22,959 nt of DNA from a virus, in IMG/VR virus record IMGVR_UViG_3300006923_000135, positions 1 through 22,959 of that record; one strand, written 5' to 3'. This document shows, piece after piece, positions 2,087 through 12,577 of this stretch; within the stretch, counting starts at the first letter, position 1, and each line of letters opens with the position of its first letter. The notes below the pieces were generated by a model, which was not told the origin of the DNA, ran no database searches, and saw only the letters and a list, made by a program, of their open reading frames with translations. The translations under genes and the position numbers were made by a program.

Positions 2087-2445
2087 TACACATCCTTTAA
2101 CGTTGAACTAGTTGTACTATATGCTTTGTCTCTCGTTACTTTAGCAGTGTCTCTTAGTGCAGGAATCTCATCTACAAACCGATGGTTTTCTAATTCCTTC
2201 GCTTGATCGTTCCAGTCTTTAGCAGTTAACCATTTAACAGTAGCGCCTTGTTTAACCCATTGATTAATAATCATTTCAACAGTAGCAACTTGAAACTCTC
2301 CTGCATCATCGTAACCGTACTCGTCTTTAATTGTTTTCCATTCGTCTTTAGTAACGTGCATTGTTACTATTAAACCAACATCTTTGCCGCCGTACGATCT
2401 GTTTGCTACTAACTTACCGTCGTTTGTTTGTACACTAGTTGACAT
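2086..2445 (-). CDS. hypothetical phage protein between two paralogues (119 aa)
   Basis: A 119-aa soluble protein, mixed alpha/beta by eye, with a Ser/Thr-rich tail (STTSSTLKDV). No family is recognised. It overlaps the end of the 454-aa gene by 11 nt and the start of the 382-aa gene by 1 nt, so the three form a coupled unit. A relic of its last ten codons lies at 881-917, after the 382-aa gene. This suggests that the small gene and a large neighbour were once a repeating two-gene module. Confidence 0.75.
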   Translation of the reverse strand: MSTSVQTNDGKLVANRSYGGKDVGLIVTMHVTKDEWKTIKDEYGYDDAGEFQVATVEMIINQWVKQGATVKWLTAKDWNDQAKELENHRFVDEIPALRDTAKVTRDKAYSTTSSTLKDV

Positions 2446-3799
2446 AAGTCTTCTCCGCTACTTTATATTTTTTCCATTTAGTTCGGCCATCGACCATTTG
2501 TTGATGCTCGTAGAATAATGTCCATCCTGCTGGCATTTTGGAATCATCGCTGTCTTGTACTACAAGTGCTAAATTCTTTTCTATTTGGTCTGCAATATGT
2601 CCTTTGAAAGTTTCACCTCTGCTTTCCGAACTCCTTAGTATAGATGACACTACATACGGAAGTTCTTTTAATGTGTATGATTCATCGTCTTCCCAATATC
2701 CATCCCATTCCGAAACATCTTCTTTTGAAATATTGACTTCATTCATAATGTCGTTGTATATCCTAGATGCTTCGTCGTTATACTCCATATAACTAGGAGC
2801 ATCGTCATCTATGTCGCCTTTGTCGTCTGTATGATTGTCGCGTAGAAAATCTTGATAGTATTCATCGCTAACTTCCCACTCGATCATTTCGTCGTATACG
2901 TAATTACTAACCTGTTCTCTGATTGCTTGTACAATATCCTCAAAGACTTGATCATTTGCAAATGGTAACATACTTGACAAGGCGCCTTTTTTATCAAAGA
3001 AATTAAATGTACTAGGGTCCGTAAAGCGATCAGTAAACAACTTTTGTAAATTAATAGGACTGTCGCCTTCGTCCATGTACTGACCACTTTCAAAATGTAG
3101 TTGATATTTTTCACCTTCGTGCTTTGCTTTCTTAGGAATGATAATATACAATGGACCATCTTTACTATAATGATCAAAATAATTAGTAGACGTTGTTGAT
3201 GCAGTACACCACGCAGTGCCTTGGCCATAATAACAAGCCGCTTGTTTATCTTGTGGTATAATTATACGTACTTCTTTATTGTCAAGAACTAATTTAGAAT
3301 TGCCCTTTGAGAGTTGGGTTTTTTCCCCGCGTTTTTCTTCAAACTCATCATGAAGTTGCATAATGTTTAGATAAAAGTTTGTTAAGTTAGCACTTTTTAC
3401 TTGACCAATATCAGCAAATTTTGCTGGTAATGCTCTATGTATTTTTAATTCATGGTACTTACGTAAGAGTGTTTCTACTGTTGTTAAAATATCTTCGTAT
3501 CTTTTAACAGCTTTCTCTAAGTAACGCATTACTACCCATTGCGTGTATTGTTTGTTTGGACTAGGGTCTTTCCCTTCAATTGTACGAAGTGCAAAGTCTA
3601 AAACTTTATCTTTATTTTCTTCAATCCAGTTCTCAAACCAACCTTCAATTTCACGGTAGTTAGAATCAATTGCTTGTGGGAATTCAGTTTGTAGTATTCT
3701 AATAAACGATGGATCATTTAATGCACGGTCCATTAACTTATTGCCAAAGTTATTAGCAGTTATGTCACGTTTGTACTCTAGTAGTTCTCTAAATCGCAT
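2435..3799 (-). CDS. phage protein with conserved YGQGTxWCT core (454 aa)
   Basis: This is the larger member of the paralogous pair. Residues about 1-17 match the shared N-terminus, and the core spans about 79-250 with DPSPNKQYTQW, EVRIIIPQD, YGQGTAWCTA (191-200) and YMDEGDSP. The C-terminal 200 residues are acidic (many D/E and Y) and have no counterpart in the paralogue. No catalytic signature is recognised. It is first in its transcription unit, behind a late-type box CATAAATA at 3829-3836. There is no convincing Shine-Dalgarno sequence. The protein could be a virion or injected protein, given the N-terminal similarity to capsid-targeting peptides, but that is inference. Confidence 0.8.
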   Translation of the reverse strand: MRFRELLEYKRDITANNFGNKLMDRALNDPSFIRILQTEFPQAIDSNYREIEGWFENWIEENKDKVLDFALRTIEGKDPSPNKQYTQWVVMRYLEKAVKRYEDILTTVETLLRKYHELKIHRALPAKFADIGQVKSANLTNFYLNIMQLHDEFEEKRGEKTQLSKGNSKLVLDNKEVRIIIPQDKQAACYYGQGTAWCTASTTSTNYFDHYSKDGPLYIIIPKKAKHEGEKYQLHFESGQYMDEGDSPINLQKLFTDRFTDPSTFNFFDKKGALSSMLPFANDQVFEDIVQAIREQVSNYVYDEMIEWEVSDEYYQDFLRDNHTDDKGDIDDDAPSYMEYNDEASRIYNDIMNEVNISKEDVSEWDGYWEDDESYTLKELPYVVSSILRSSESRGETFKGHIADQIEKNLALVVQDSDDSKMPAGWTLFYEHQQMVDGRTKWKKYKVAEKTYVN

Positions 3800-8173: not shown

Positions 8174-8181
8174 TATTTAGT
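8174..8181 (-). promoter_or_regulatory. late-type promoter box variant ACTAAATA before clpA
   Basis: The minus strand reads ACTAAATA at the stop codon of the APS-kinase-like gene. The same 8-mer occurs at 8875-8882 and 14482-14489, each time between genes. A transcript from here would have a leader of about 53 nt that includes the 20-bp palindrome. Confidence 0.4.
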
Positions 8182-8639
8182 TAAAAACCGTTTTGTGGGT
8201 TTAAAACATCATTAATTATGTTCTGTACGTGTTTTTCGTTATCGGAGTCCTGTACTCTGTAATCATAACATAAGGGATCTAGAAAAAGTTGCTGTGTATC
8301 ATCAAATCTACATTCGTTAATTGTGTCCATCCAAATAAGATAGTCAGGAGAGAATATACTACGTGATTTTTGATTAGGAGCCACGAAGTCAACGACAGCA
8401 ATGTCTTCAGTTCTTTTTTTGCTATAACCGTCCTTCCATTCACAAAAATTAAACATACGTTGTGCTTGTCTTAAACGTCCTTCGAGGGTAAAATCCCAAT
8501 CGTGGTACTTTTGTCGTTGCTCATCAGCATTTAAACGTACTACGCTGTAAGATTTTTCTAAAAGGGATGCTGTTATTTTGTCAGATAACGTAGTTTTGCC
8601 AGAACCCGGCAAGCCCATAATTAATATCTTAAAAAGCAT
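8181..8639 (-). CDS. adenylylsulfate-kinase-like P-loop protein (152 aa)
   Basis: A P-loop kinase with Walker A GLPGSGKTT (9-17). It then has LNADEQRQKYHDWDF (36-50), a GRLRQAQRM helix (54-62) matching the dR-x-E-x-x-R region of APS kinases, and VVDFVAPNQKSR (82-93) matching their SFISP-x-x-x-xR strand. The family phosphorylates adenylyl sulfate to PAPS, the sulfate donor. At 152 aa it is shorter than typical cellular CysC (near 200 aa), and the C-terminal substrate region is divergent. A different nucleotide or polynucleotide substrate is possible. No clear ribosome-binding site precedes the ATG; a long structured leader does. A sulfotransferase-like gene lies in the same window. Confidence 0.75.
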   Translation of the reverse strand: MLFKILIMGLPGSGKTTLSDKITASLLEKSYSVVRLNADEQRQKYHDWDFTLEGRLRQAQRMFNFCEWKDGYSKKRTEDIAVVDFVAPNQKSRSIFSPDYLIWMDTINECRFDDTQQLFLDPLCYDYRVQDSDNEKHVQNIINDVLNPQNGF

Positions 8640-8893: not shown

Positions 8894-9604
8894 TTAAATG
8901 CAGTATTTGGCATCTTTATTGCCTTTCTTAACGATATCCCATGTTTCCCTTGACCCTGTTCCAGTTAACTGTAAAGCCATACGTTTATACCAACTACCAT
9001 TCCATGTAACGTGTGGTAATGTGCTCCAATCCCATGTAAAGATAGTACCTGCTCTCCATTGCGTGTACACAATATTTCCGAACTGTGCTATTTGTCCTGG
9101 TTGATGGTCCTCTAACATAATAAGAAATCGTAACTTATTGGGTTCTTGATACTTAAAATCTTTGCTGTGTACAAACTCTTTAGTAGGGTTGCCTGGTAAG
9201 TTATCAATGTGCCACATTAACTGATCATTAGGCATTTGATCATCCAACTTCTTGGTAAACTTTTTAGATAAGTCAAACTTAAAAAAGTCAGTCATTGCTT
9301 GTGTTTTTGGTAATTGATCTTCATATCCGCCGAACTTAAAATGACTAAAGATTCTAGCGGTAGGATCGCCGTCTGGGTTTTCTGCATCTTCCTTGATATG
9401 GTTTTCACTAGGGATATTTGCGGCATGTCCGTAGCCTTGCTTGTTATAAACCTTTTCGTTAAACTTAGTAACAAGATCGCCACGCATAAGTTCAATTTCG
9501 TCTGACCAATCGCCAACAAATCTGCCTACGATCTTTACGTATTCGCCTTCTTTATCTTCTCTAAATTTATCAAAATGCCAAGGGCTTTTAAATGGACTAT
9601 TCAT
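8894..9604 (-). CDS. 2-oxoglutarate/Fe(II)-dependent oxygenase-like protein (236 aa)
   Basis: The sequence shows the iron-binding HxD...H pattern: WHID (H132, D134) and LPHVTWNG (H198), with a basic residue ten positions on (R208 in WYKRMALQL) where such enzymes bind the 2-oxoglutarate carboxylate. A WRAGTIFTWDW strand precedes the second histidine. The family hydroxylates proteins, nucleic acids or small molecules; the substrate cannot be told. The start ATG at 9604 is preferred over an in-frame TTG at 9631, because the TTG lies next to the terminator hairpin of the preceding tctC gene. No Shine-Dalgarno sequence is visible at the ATG. Confidence 0.7.
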   Translation of the reverse strand: MNSPFKSPWHFDKFREDKEGEYVKIVGRFVGDWSDEIELMRGDLVTKFNEKVYNKQGYGHAANIPSENHIKEDAENPDGDPTARIFSHFKFGGYEDQLPKTQAMTDFFKFDLSKKFTKKLDDQMPNDQLMWHIDNLPGNPTKEFVHSKDFKYQEPNKLRFLIMLEDHQPGQIAQFGNIVYTQWRAGTIFTWDWSTLPHVTWNGSWYKRMALQLTGTGSRETWDIVKKGNKDAKYCI

Positions 9605-9633
9605 ATATATAGCAATTGTTGTACTCAGCAAGA

Positions 9634-9653
9634 AGCCCGCAATAAAGCAGGCT
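9634..9653 (-). terminator. hairpin terminator after tctC
   Basis: On the minus strand AGCCTGC-TTTATT-GCGGGCT forms a 7-bp stem (one G-U pair), followed by TTCTTG, 24 nt beyond the tctC stop. The U-tract is imperfect. On the plus strand the stem has a C-A mismatch but is followed by CTTTTGTTT. The GC-rich stem stands out from the AT-rich background. Confidence 0.65.
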
Positions 9654-9676
9654 CTTTTGTTTGGTTTAGTTACTTA

Positions 9677-10804
9677 TTATTTAAATAAACTATTCCAAAA
9701 TCCTTCTTTAGTTTCCGAAGTTGTAGTAACAACTTCTCCTGAAACCATTTCCGGCTTGTATACTGAGTTAAGACCTAGTGCTTCTTTGTTGAACTTAACT
9801 AGTGCAGTTAAAGCATCTTTAGTAATTAACGAGTGTAGCACGTCGATAGTCTTGTTACCATCTTCACCTACTACCCAGTCGTACTTGCCAATCTTCTTAT
9901 TAAAGATTGCAATTGACTCTGGATTGTTAGCCATTTCATTACATGCTTGTCTGAACTTAGCAGTATTAGGATTGCCTTTGTTTACCCATAGTGCTTTTTG
10001 AATAGCATCTCTCCATGAGTGAATTAATGCATATGCACTGTATAATTCGCCTGATGGTGCTTCGCCCCATTTTGCTTCAAACACATCTTCAAAACGTTTG
10101 CCTAAGTAGTTAGGATCATCCTTAGTTAATCCCGTTTCAATATCTAAGATGCCATGGTGTAACCATGTTGTTACTTTGCCTTCGTCAACTAATGGCTGTA
10201 CTTTAGCAATGTACTGTGCAGGGTTAGCACGTGTTGCAGTTAGTTCTGCACGTGTAAATGCTAAGTGACGCTCAGAACCTTTAAGTCCGTTGATCCAAGT
10301 AACTTTATCAGTAAAGATATCAATGTACTCGTCTACAGTTTTACCAGGACCGCCAATCATCATAGCAATTGCTAAACCTTCTGGAACCATACCAGAACCA
10401 GCCGCGTGCGAAATACCTTCATTTTCATTAACGCCTTTGTGCTTACTCATAATAATGTTTAAGTTCTGATGACATACAGAATCATATTCTTTGTAGTTGT
10501 ACTTAACGTTTTCTTGTACATATGAAATACCATTACCACCATGCGAAATCATAATAACGTTATCATCAAAACGCTTAGTAGTATGGAACTTATTAGGTCC
10601 TGCCATGTCACGTGCGCCTGGGTTGTACGAAATAACTACGTTCTCGCCTTGTAGTGCTGGCGCTTTGGCGAACTCTGTTGCTACGATATTAGCCCATACT
10701 GATGTACCAGAACCTGGTTTTTGAGGTGACATTAATTCGATATCTGCCACTGCCATTGTTGAAATTGCCGTTGCTACGGCAAATGCTACACTTTTAATTT
10801 TCAT
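9677..10804 (-). CDS. tctC: TctC-like periplasmic solute-binding protein (375 aa)
   Basis: The protein starts with a Sec-type signal peptide: basic MKIK, a hydrophobic run, and a likely cut after AVA (about residue 20). Mature residues 1-90 follow the TctC/Bug pattern: an opening beta strand, PGSGTSVWANIVATEF where the family has PGG-x-x-D...A, then VVISYNPGARDMAG matching the family's N-K-PGA-x-G. These proteins capture carboxylates and similar organic anions in the periplasm and deliver them to TctA. At 375 aa it is longer than the usual 300-330 aa, with a Thr/Ser-rich tail. AAGGAAAG lies 4 nt upstream of the ATG. It follows tctA by 29 nt, so the two are one operon, ended by the hairpin at 9634-9653. 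The ligand is unknown. Confidence 0.75.
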   Translation of the reverse strand: MKIKSVAFAVATAISTMAVADIELMSPQKPGSGTSVWANIVATEFAKAPALQGENVVISYNPGARDMAGPNKFHTTKRFDDNVIMISHGGNGISYVQENVKYNYKEYDSVCHQNLNIIMSKHKGVNENEGISHAAGSGMVPEGLAIAMMIGGPGKTVDEYIDIFTDKVTWINGLKGSERHLAFTRAELTATRANPAQYIAKVQPLVDEGKVTTWLHHGILDIETGLTKDDPNYLGKRFEDVFEAKWGEAPSGELYSAYALIHSWRDAIQKALWVNKGNPNTAKFRQACNEMANNPESIAIFNKKIGKYDWVVGEDGNKTIDVLHSLITKDALTALVKFNKEALGLNSVYKPEMVSGEVVTTTSETKEGFWNSLFK

Positions 10805-10833
10805 TTACTTTCCTTATTTTATTTAAATTACGA

Positions 10834-12441
10834 CTACGAGTAGTCAACTTTACCTTTACTTACAAAACTCCAAACTAGTACTACTAGAATTAAGACACTT
10901 ACAACTACAAACACTGGGTGCTGTAGCACATCATTTCCATCACGCAAAGCCATAGCAATTCTACCATTGCCTACTGTTTTGCCTGAGAAAAATTCAGTTA
11001 GTTTAACAAGTGGATAACCACCAATATTAAACATACTAAAAAACTGCATTCCTAACATTTCGATTTTATCTCCTAAGATAAATCCAATCATCAATGCAGG
11101 TCTACTAAACTTCCATTTGCGCATTCCTAAACCCAGTACAGTAAACACGCCTAATAAAAATACATTTTCAAATCCATATACGCCAAATCCTGCTGTATAT
11201 GTTGCCCATACAATAAATGCTAATATTACAGGAAAATAATACTTGTACGGAACATATGCTATTGCTGTTAAGTACTTCATCAAGTACAAACAAATAACAC
11301 CAGTAATTAGTGTAGATGCTAAGAAGCCAAAGCTTAATGAGTCAAAGAATAAACTATTCTCCATTAAGTTGTTATTCATTACGTCTGTGCCTAGTGATAA
11401 CTCAAAGCCAATAGCACCAAATAAACCAATTACAATTGCCGCGAATGGTGCACCAGGAATACCAAACAGTACAGTAGGAATAAACGCTGATGCTTTTTGT
11501 GCATTGTTTGAACCCTCTGGTCCAATTACACCCTTAATATTACCTTTACCAAACGGTATCTTCTCGTTTGGGTTAGTTGCTACTGTCTGTCCGTATGCCA
11601 ACCAATCAGACATACCACCACCAAGTCCTGGTAAGAAGCCAACAATAGCACCAATAATACCACCCCTTGCTGATAGTTTCCATTCCTTGAACGAAATTTT
11701 AATTCCGTCATTTAGTTGTTGTGTGTGGTTTGTAGCGGAGCGTGTTGATGTTAGTACTTTGTTCTTTAATGCTAATATCATTTCTGGCATAGCGAATATA
11801 CCTGCAATAACAGGAATCATTGAAATACCTTTACTAGCACCATCTCCTATTAAGAAATCCCAACCCATTGTAAATCTAGGCGATGCTGTAATAGGGTCTG
11901 TGCCCACCAGCGCCAAGAACACACCAAGTGACAATGCTAGTATCGAACGTACCCAAAACTTATTAGATACAAGACTAACTGTTACAAATGCTAATATACA
12001 TAATACAAACAATTCTGCTTGTCCTATTCCGCCTTCTGTTGGTGGCATAATAATAAAGTTGTAGTACCAAGGCATTAACAAGAATGCAATTGAGCCCCAT
12101 ATTAAGCCATTAACTGTTGATGTTGTAACTGCGGCTGATAATGCGTATGTTGCTTTACCTTGCTGTGCTAATGGAAACCCATCTACCATAGTTGCGGCAG
12201 ATGAGTTTGCTCCAGGAATGCCCAATAACACTGATGTAAAGGTGTCTCCTGTTGTACTAGACGCTACTACAGCAACGATAAAGATAACCGCTATATAAGG
12301 GTCAACTGATTTAAGAGATACTATAAATGGAAATAGTGCAACTAAACCTGTAGTTGCACCTGCGGCAGGAATAATACCAATGATTAGTCCGTAAATAATG
12401 CCTGCAAATAATGCTAAGGTTGCGAGTAAATAAAATTCCAT
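10834..12441 (-). CDS. tctA: TctA-like tripartite tricarboxylate transporter membrane subunit (535 aa)
   Basis: A polytopic membrane protein with about ten or more hydrophobic segments and the family's signatures. Near the N-terminus GLIIGIIPAAGATTGLVALFPF is followed by SVLLGIPGANSSAATMVDGFPLAQQGKA; mid-protein GAIVGFLPGLGGGMSDWLAY and VLFGIPGAPFAAIVIG form the repeated second half. The length is normal for TctA. It forms the ion-coupled channel of the tripartite tricarboxylate transporter in the inner membrane. The small TctB subunit, normally required, is not encoded nearby nor visibly fused here. The start codon has only a weak ribosome-binding site, but a 136-nt upstream region carries three inverted repeats. 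An antisense frame of 273 codons across this gene is a shadow. Confidence 0.9.
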   Translation of the reverse strand: MEFYLLATLALFAGIIYGLIIGIIPAAGATTGLVALFPFIVSLKSVDPYIAVIFIVAVVASSTTGDTFTSVLLGIPGANSSAATMVDGFPLAQQGKATYALSAAVTTSTVNGLIWGSIAFLLMPWYYNFIIMPPTEGGIGQAELFVLCILAFVTVSLVSNKFWVRSILALSLGVFLALVGTDPITASPRFTMGWDFLIGDGASKGISMIPVIAGIFAMPEMILALKNKVLTSTRSATNHTQQLNDGIKISFKEWKLSARGGIIGAIVGFLPGLGGGMSDWLAYGQTVATNPNEKIPFGKGNIKGVIGPEGSNNAQKASAFIPTVLFGIPGAPFAAIVIGLFGAIGFELSLGTDVMNNNLMENSLFFDSLSFGFLASTLITGVICLYLMKYLTAIAYVPYKYYFPVILAFIVWATYTAGFGVYGFENVFLLGVFTVLGLGMRKWKFSRPALMIGFILGDKIEMLGMQFFSMFNIGGYPLVKLTEFFSGKTVGNGRIAMALRDGNDVLQHPVFVVVSVLILVVLVWSFVSKGKVDYS

Positions 12442-12577
12442 TCGTGCTTATATGTTAAATTTAAATTATATTATATACATTAGTGTATATAAAATTTATA
12501 AAATTTAAGCACTCGCTTATGATATTTTCGATCGAAAATATTTAATTGTAACGACGTTACAATGATGTTTTTATTTA
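12442..12577 (-). promoter_or_regulatory. tctAC control region with three inverted repeats
   Basis: Three separate dyads lie here: TTATATACA/TGTATATAA with 4-nt loop (12471-12492), the perfect 20-bp palindrome ATATTTTCGATCGAAAATAT (12522-12541), and ATTGTAACG/CGTTACAAT with 1-nt centre (12545-12563). A late-type box AATAAATA overlaps the end of the methyltransferase gene at 12572-12579, and a weaker TATAAATT is at 12493-12500. No other intergenic region in the window is so rich in symmetric elements. Confidence 0.65.

Follow-up and report, generated by a model that had tools for sequence, protein, structure and literature searches.

A viral record of 22,959 nucleotides (IMG/VR record IMGVR_UViG_3300006923_000135; the whole stretch is referred to as the window) carries a gene pair encoding a TctA-type membrane transporter and a TctC-type periplasmic binding protein, without the TctB subunit of the tripartite tricarboxylate transporter (TTT) family. 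We consider it rather likely that this pair is a virus-specific, TctB-less two-component importer of the TTT type for small polycarboxylates, tied to a cassette of modification enzymes. The secreted TctC-like protein would bind a small polycarboxylate in the periplasm of the host and pass it on to TctA, which would import the ligand without TctB, presumably by ion symport. The pair would belong to a lineage present in many tailed phages and share its ancestry with a cellular operon in which a long TctC is combined with a TctA-TctB fusion. In the viral line TctB is absent. The importer may supply carboxylate to the infected cell, and perhaps also to a 2-oxoglutarate-using enzyme. The predicted fold, the signal-like N-terminus, purifying selection and kinship support the idea of a working importer.

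The TctA-TctC pair and its phage setting

All identifiable genes of the window are located on the minus strand. In reading direction, a piece of a DNA polymerase, a head-morphogenesis/GroES-like gene, a clamp loader and two virion structural proteins are followed by the sulfotransferase-like and methyltransferase-like genes, TctA, TctC, an oxygenase-like gene, a kinase and a ClpA-like protein (Table 1). The clamp loader is nearest to that of jumbo phages of the PA5oct group (56%), and the ClpA-like protein matches several large phages (~40%). The polymerase piece, the clamp loader, both virion structural proteins and the ClpA-like protein share the strand of the Tct pair, which is flanked by phage genes on both sides, in line with the phage-type gene series of the initial annotation. 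Given these neighbours and the identity of the transporter, the pair represents metabolic-type genes within a phage genome, and thus candidate auxiliary metabolic genes that may support host metabolism during infection. Glycosyltransferase-like and SGNH-like genes were seen by eye near the pair. Elsewhere in the window, two neighbouring proteins (938-2086 and 2435-3799, minus strand) are apparently related; their N-termini are alike (RYSELLEYKRDITANN and RFRELLEYKRDITANN), and both match the same two PHROG families of unknown function.

Table 1. Features of the window around the Tct gene pair
Feature	Position	Strand	Evidence and remarks
P-loop kinase	8181..8639	-	APS_kinase 30 bits, phrog_10255; in 6/44 neighbourhoods
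2OG-Fe(II) oxygenase-like	8894..9631	-	TTG start listed, ATG at 9604; HxD...H and R pattern
Terminator-like hairpin after tctC	9633..9654	-	-13.9 kcal/mol, z -3.5
TctC-type periplasmic binding protein, 375 aa	9677..10804	-	Fold match to TctC/Bug proteins, pairing with TctA
Probable signal peptide of TctC, residues 1-20, ...STMAVA-D	10745..10804	-	Read from the sequence, without a signal predictor; low model confidence there
TctA-type membrane transporter, 535 aa	10834..12441	-	PF01970 292.5 bits, viral clade, dN/dS about 0.07-0.11
Gap before tctA with palindromes (e.g. 12522-12541) and promoter-like site 12493-12465	12442..12577	-	
Methyltransferase-like, 231 aa	12578..13273	-	Conserved VLDxGCGYNEFKGKI motif, linkage
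Sulfotransferase-like P-loop protein, 190 aa	13270..13842	-	Weak Sulfotransfer_4 matches, linkage

The identification of the membrane subunit stands: the TctA gene is an intact open reading frame, its Pfam match spans the whole model, and the protein keeps its invariant motifs. A Foldseek search with the TctA model gave no useful match (best E 0.012). The label of TctC was unproven at first because the sequence libraries gave no credible match. Single-sequence searches of Pfam, PHROGs, NCBIfam and PDB sequences yielded nothing credible, and the Pfam model PF03401 matched none of 34 viral TctC members at E up to 10; its cut-off is passed by two of the cellular TctC relatives scanned. The identity of TctC was settled only by fold comparison together with a profile built from the 34 relatives. 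The AlphaFold model (pLDDT 89, pTM 0.86, with the 34-sequence alignment as input) displays a complete two-domain binding-protein fold, and its 17 best PDB matches are all TctC/Bug proteins (E 3e-10 to 9e-7). Judged by this predicted fold, the TctC-type label is correct, in agreement with the periplasmic binding protein of the initial annotation. The two genes lie side by side, as subunit genes of the TTT family do, with 29 bp between them, and both are under purifying selection (dN 0.06-0.18 vs dS 0.8-1.4).

The pair had also been credited with a control region and a terminator of its own. A gap of 136 bp with palindromes indeed precedes TctA and a hairpin follows TctC; however, promoter-like sites are no commoner in this region than in shuffles, and the hairpin was missed by the terminator scan because few T follow its stem.

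Scans of IMG/VR retrieved 313 relatives of TctA and, with the TctC alignment, 536 relatives of TctC. A pattern scan of 84,980 species genomes found only two TctC relatives, one on a contig of a Pelagibacter MAG with genes resembling those of phages and one on a Marine bacterium B5-7 contig, whose genes are bacterial; as such scans detect close relatives, absence elsewhere refers to this subfamily and not to all TctC. The TctC subfamily is nearly confined to viruses. Among INPHARED phages no TctC match was found, and TctA matches occur in only 7 records (four human faecal 'Bacteriophage sp.' and three labelled Salmonella or Escherichia), at 26-31% identity and in each case over less than 80% of the query. 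The pair is TctA-first in 69 of 76 distinct TctA loci and TctC-first in the remaining 7, which rules out gene order as a viral hallmark. In the first 80 TctA loci, TctC mostly follows directly after TctA, often with an 8-base overlap; where no TctC is visible (4 loci), the sequence ends with or just after TctA in three cases and continues for 526 bases in one. At one locus (L040:6214-9891), a single TctA is flanked by TctC genes on both sides.

The bacterial contig from B5-7 (BQJD01000039.1; loci L091, L426 and L427) has a viral-type TctA-TctC pair with sulfotransferase-like, methyltransferase and 2OG oxygenase genes, and also DnaJ-like, YcaO/TfuA-like and DsrMK-like genes recognized by eye. 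As the TctA of this contig falls within the viral clade, a transfer from phage to bacterium may have taken place.

Absence of TctB and cellular kin

According to the initial annotation, TctB is neither between nor beside the two genes, and this is borne out. Pfam detects no TctB in the 23-kb window fragment, the coding strand of the window contains no multi-helix gene besides TctA, and the other hydrophobic reading frames are out-of-frame, inside or opposite genes. A search for tctB elsewhere had been suggested as a check; TctB, which in the TTT family may be separate or fused, is found neither in this record nor, by Pfam, in 67 of 68 viral records searched, which are not necessarily complete genomes and of which TctB-free ones measure 250, 328, 344 and 359 kb, among others. 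The one TctB-bearing record (G017, a 182-kb phage record) has its TctB next to an additional TctA of the canonical kind, with some 46 kb between them and the viral pair. This canonical TctB-TctA pair is followed by a TonB-dependent receptor with a Plug domain (L167:6986-12861), and together they could make up a phage-borne system for uptake across the outer and the inner membrane. A profile of the fused TctB found nothing in 48 viral records, but the same profile missed the known TctB of G017. No small multi-helix protein was seen to recur near the viral pair, and a substitute for TctB between TctA and TctC was rejected, the inserts being oxygenase, methyltransferase or small unrelated reading frames. 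Since TctB is poorly conserved, a diverged copy could escape detection.

Cellular kin were sampled from 240 and 229 genomes of two proteobacterial classes, namely those of the Pelagibacter and B5-7 genomes. Two viral-type copies aside, the best cellular TctA matches are mostly proteins of 650-700 aa. These long TctAs are TctA-TctB fusions, since their C-terminal 170-215 residues contain 4 to 6 hydrophobic segments and a profile of this part matches separate TctB-sized reading frames beside unfused TctAs. Fusions of this kind are described as rare (PMC5812351). In an unrooted TctA tree of 58 proteins, computed with care and with long-branch and truncated rows left out, the viral TctAs form one clade (100/100) and are not placed inside a host chromosome, the outcome against which the initial annotation had cautioned. 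A branch with 96/93 support separates the viral clade and 11 fusions from 4 other fusions and all 25 unfused TctAs. The viral clade is separate in a quicker tree of 107 rows as well, in which the exact neighbour is not fixed. The branch of the viral TctAs is very long (1.91). With the viral TctC profile, binding proteins of the fusion operon type reach 70-123 bits and all others no more than 37. As TctA tree and TctC profile both point there, one cellular operon type is taken as kin. On the unrooted tree, a loss of TctB in the viral line and two separate gains of the fusion are equally parsimonious.

Nine loci of the fusion type were read (L417-L425). A PrpF-type gene is present in six, identified as 4-oxalomesaconate tautomerase in the five loci scanned against NCBIfam, and TcuA and/or TcuB, which are genes of tricarballylate use, are present in three. 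These catabolic genes suggest a polycarboxylate as substrate of the cellular relatives; extended to the viral pair, across a TctC identity of about 21-27% between viral and cellular proteins, the suggestion is less certain.

The enzyme cassette and competing explanations

The cassette around the Tct pair is loose and reshuffled; it comprises a methyltransferase, a sulfotransferase-like protein and, in many cases, a 2OG-Fe(II) oxygenase. We compared 44 distinct neighbourhoods that extend 5 kb to either side, including the bacterial contig L091. Of these, 39 contain the methyltransferase, 32 the sulfotransferase-like gene and 24 the oxygenase, whereas the two virion genes of the window backbone are seen in 15 and 14 and the clamp loader in 11. 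Across 76 distinct loci, some 40 arrangements of the five genes were counted. A shared phage backbone alone was therefore rejected as the cause of linkage, although shared ancestry still inflates the statistics. In each of 24 large records (3.4 Mb in total), no more than 3.8 kb separates TctC from the best match to the methyltransferase. Under independent placement the probability of this would be ~10^-27, the true figure being much larger owing to shared ancestry. The 9 full-length oxygenase matches that are adjacent in score are all found no further than 0.3 kb from TctC. In the reverse direction, two layers can be told apart. Loci retrieved with the methyltransferase alignment carry Tct genes in 26 of 28 cases, a figure biased upward by an alignment built from Tct-linked members. 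Retrieval via the sulfotransferase-like gene gave 44 distinct viral loci (within L252-L345), all with the methyltransferase and only two with Tct genes.

Three of 24 members of the sulfotransferase-like family match Sulfotransfer_4 (best E 1e-4). In the oxygenase family, the HxD...H and R pattern is invariant across 23 sequences, with weak Pfam support, and 2-oxoglutarate is the expected co-substrate of such proteins. The window oxygenase falls into a subgroup of its own and shares 25-30% identity with most of the other members. Among sequences closely related to the window (L002:8392-8589; G002:C1:31265-31913) the oxygenase beside TctC seems short or interrupted; the window copy is intact. 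When the sulfotransferase-like and methyltransferase alignments were used for profile searches of the PDB, no meaningful match appeared; with the oxygenase alignment the best E was 0.14, and AtsK was among the matches at 0.32. There is no obvious carboxylate pathway among the cassette enzymes, and a link of the cassette through 2-oxoglutarate is speculation.

The initial annotation had offered three options for the pair, namely combination with host TctB, replacement of host TctC to change the ligand, or function without TctB. The consistent absence of TctB makes TctB-free working the best supported of these. An assembly of viral TctA and TctC with host TctB into a phage-host hybrid importer is possible too, as TctB is normally present in bacteria (PMC5812351) and TctB genes exist in bacterial genomes, including the Pelagibacter MAG with one viral-type contig (L170). 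We nevertheless find it unlikely, considering that the viral TctA is nearest to TctAs with fused and not separate TctB, and that subunit specificity is reported in the analogous TRAP transporters (PMC5812351). Somewhat more doubtful still is that the proteins no longer feed the cell and, along with the modification enzymes, alter the host surface or envelope, e.g. for exclusion of competing phages or as a source of building blocks for surface or virion modification. The constant company of methyltransferase and sulfotransferase-like protein and the glycosyltransferase-like and SGNH-like genes nearby would fit such a role; yet the invariant motifs of TctA and the complete two-domain fold of TctC suit transport, and the sulfotransferase-methyltransferase pair mostly occurs without Tct genes (42 of 44 loci).

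Chimeric assembly or misclassified bacterial DNA, which the initial annotation had named as a possible refutation, is hardly credible. One related contig (L091) is bacterial, but phage genes flank the pair, the viral clade has full support, and the pair is found in dozens of independent viral contigs of up to 359 kb, a recurrence that contradicts a chimera. What persists of the initial reading is a phage-borne pair without TctB; a simple host cassette taken up for carbon uptake does not agree with a TctC subfamily nearly restricted to viruses, nor with the recurrent methyltransferase, sulfotransferase-like and 2OG oxygenase genes. Carbon uptake during infection may still be the benefit of the importer that we favour. 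A bolder and rather improbable extension would unite the five genes in one viral pathway, in which the cargo of the importer is converted, or attached to a surface or virion component, by the oxygenase, the methyltransferase and the sulfotransferase-like protein. If true, this would be a phage-made uptake-and-tailoring system without known cellular counterpart.

Relation to known transporters and significance

The viral pair resembles the TTT family (TC 2.A.80; TctCBA of Salmonella) in that TctA fits the Pfam model of the family and a protein of the TctC/Bug fold is encoded alongside. It differs in the lack of TctB, a TctC too diverged for PF03401, the usual order TctA-TctC and its location on phages. 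The cellular operons of long TctC and TctA-TctB fusion (L417-L425) are the nearest cellular kin found for both proteins and share with the viral pair the long TctC and a G-G-x-x-x-W-A loop; however, their TctB is fused to TctA, TctC comes first, and catabolic genes lie alongside. Archaeal TctAs mostly stand alone and have been proposed to work without the two other subunits (PMC5898192, PMC5812351). Like the viral pair they lack TctB; unlike it, they are cellular and usually without TctC as well.

In the literature outside most subscription journals, we found one earlier report of viral tctA, on SUP05 viral contigs (Roux et al., 2014, PMC4164917), where a 2OG-FeII oxygenase is among the auxiliary genes listed with it; a review (PMC6359870) mentions this tctA as well. 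In the original report it is graded 'protein domain hit only', and the passage concerned describes neither a TctC partner nor the absence of TctB nor a cassette. Within the same literature, we found neither the TctA-TctC pair nor its lack of TctB nor the cassette described for phages. New here is the pair within a reshuffled cassette of methyltransferase, sulfotransferase-like and 2OG-Fe(II) oxygenase genes.

The role of TctB in TTT transporters is not known (PMC5812351). A large natural family without TctB, consisting of small intact pairs under purifying selection, makes this role directly testable. Our data suggest that the nutrient importer of these uncultured phages represents a lineage of its own and was not copied recently from host genes. 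The tie to modification enzymes provides a lead on what the transported compound serves.
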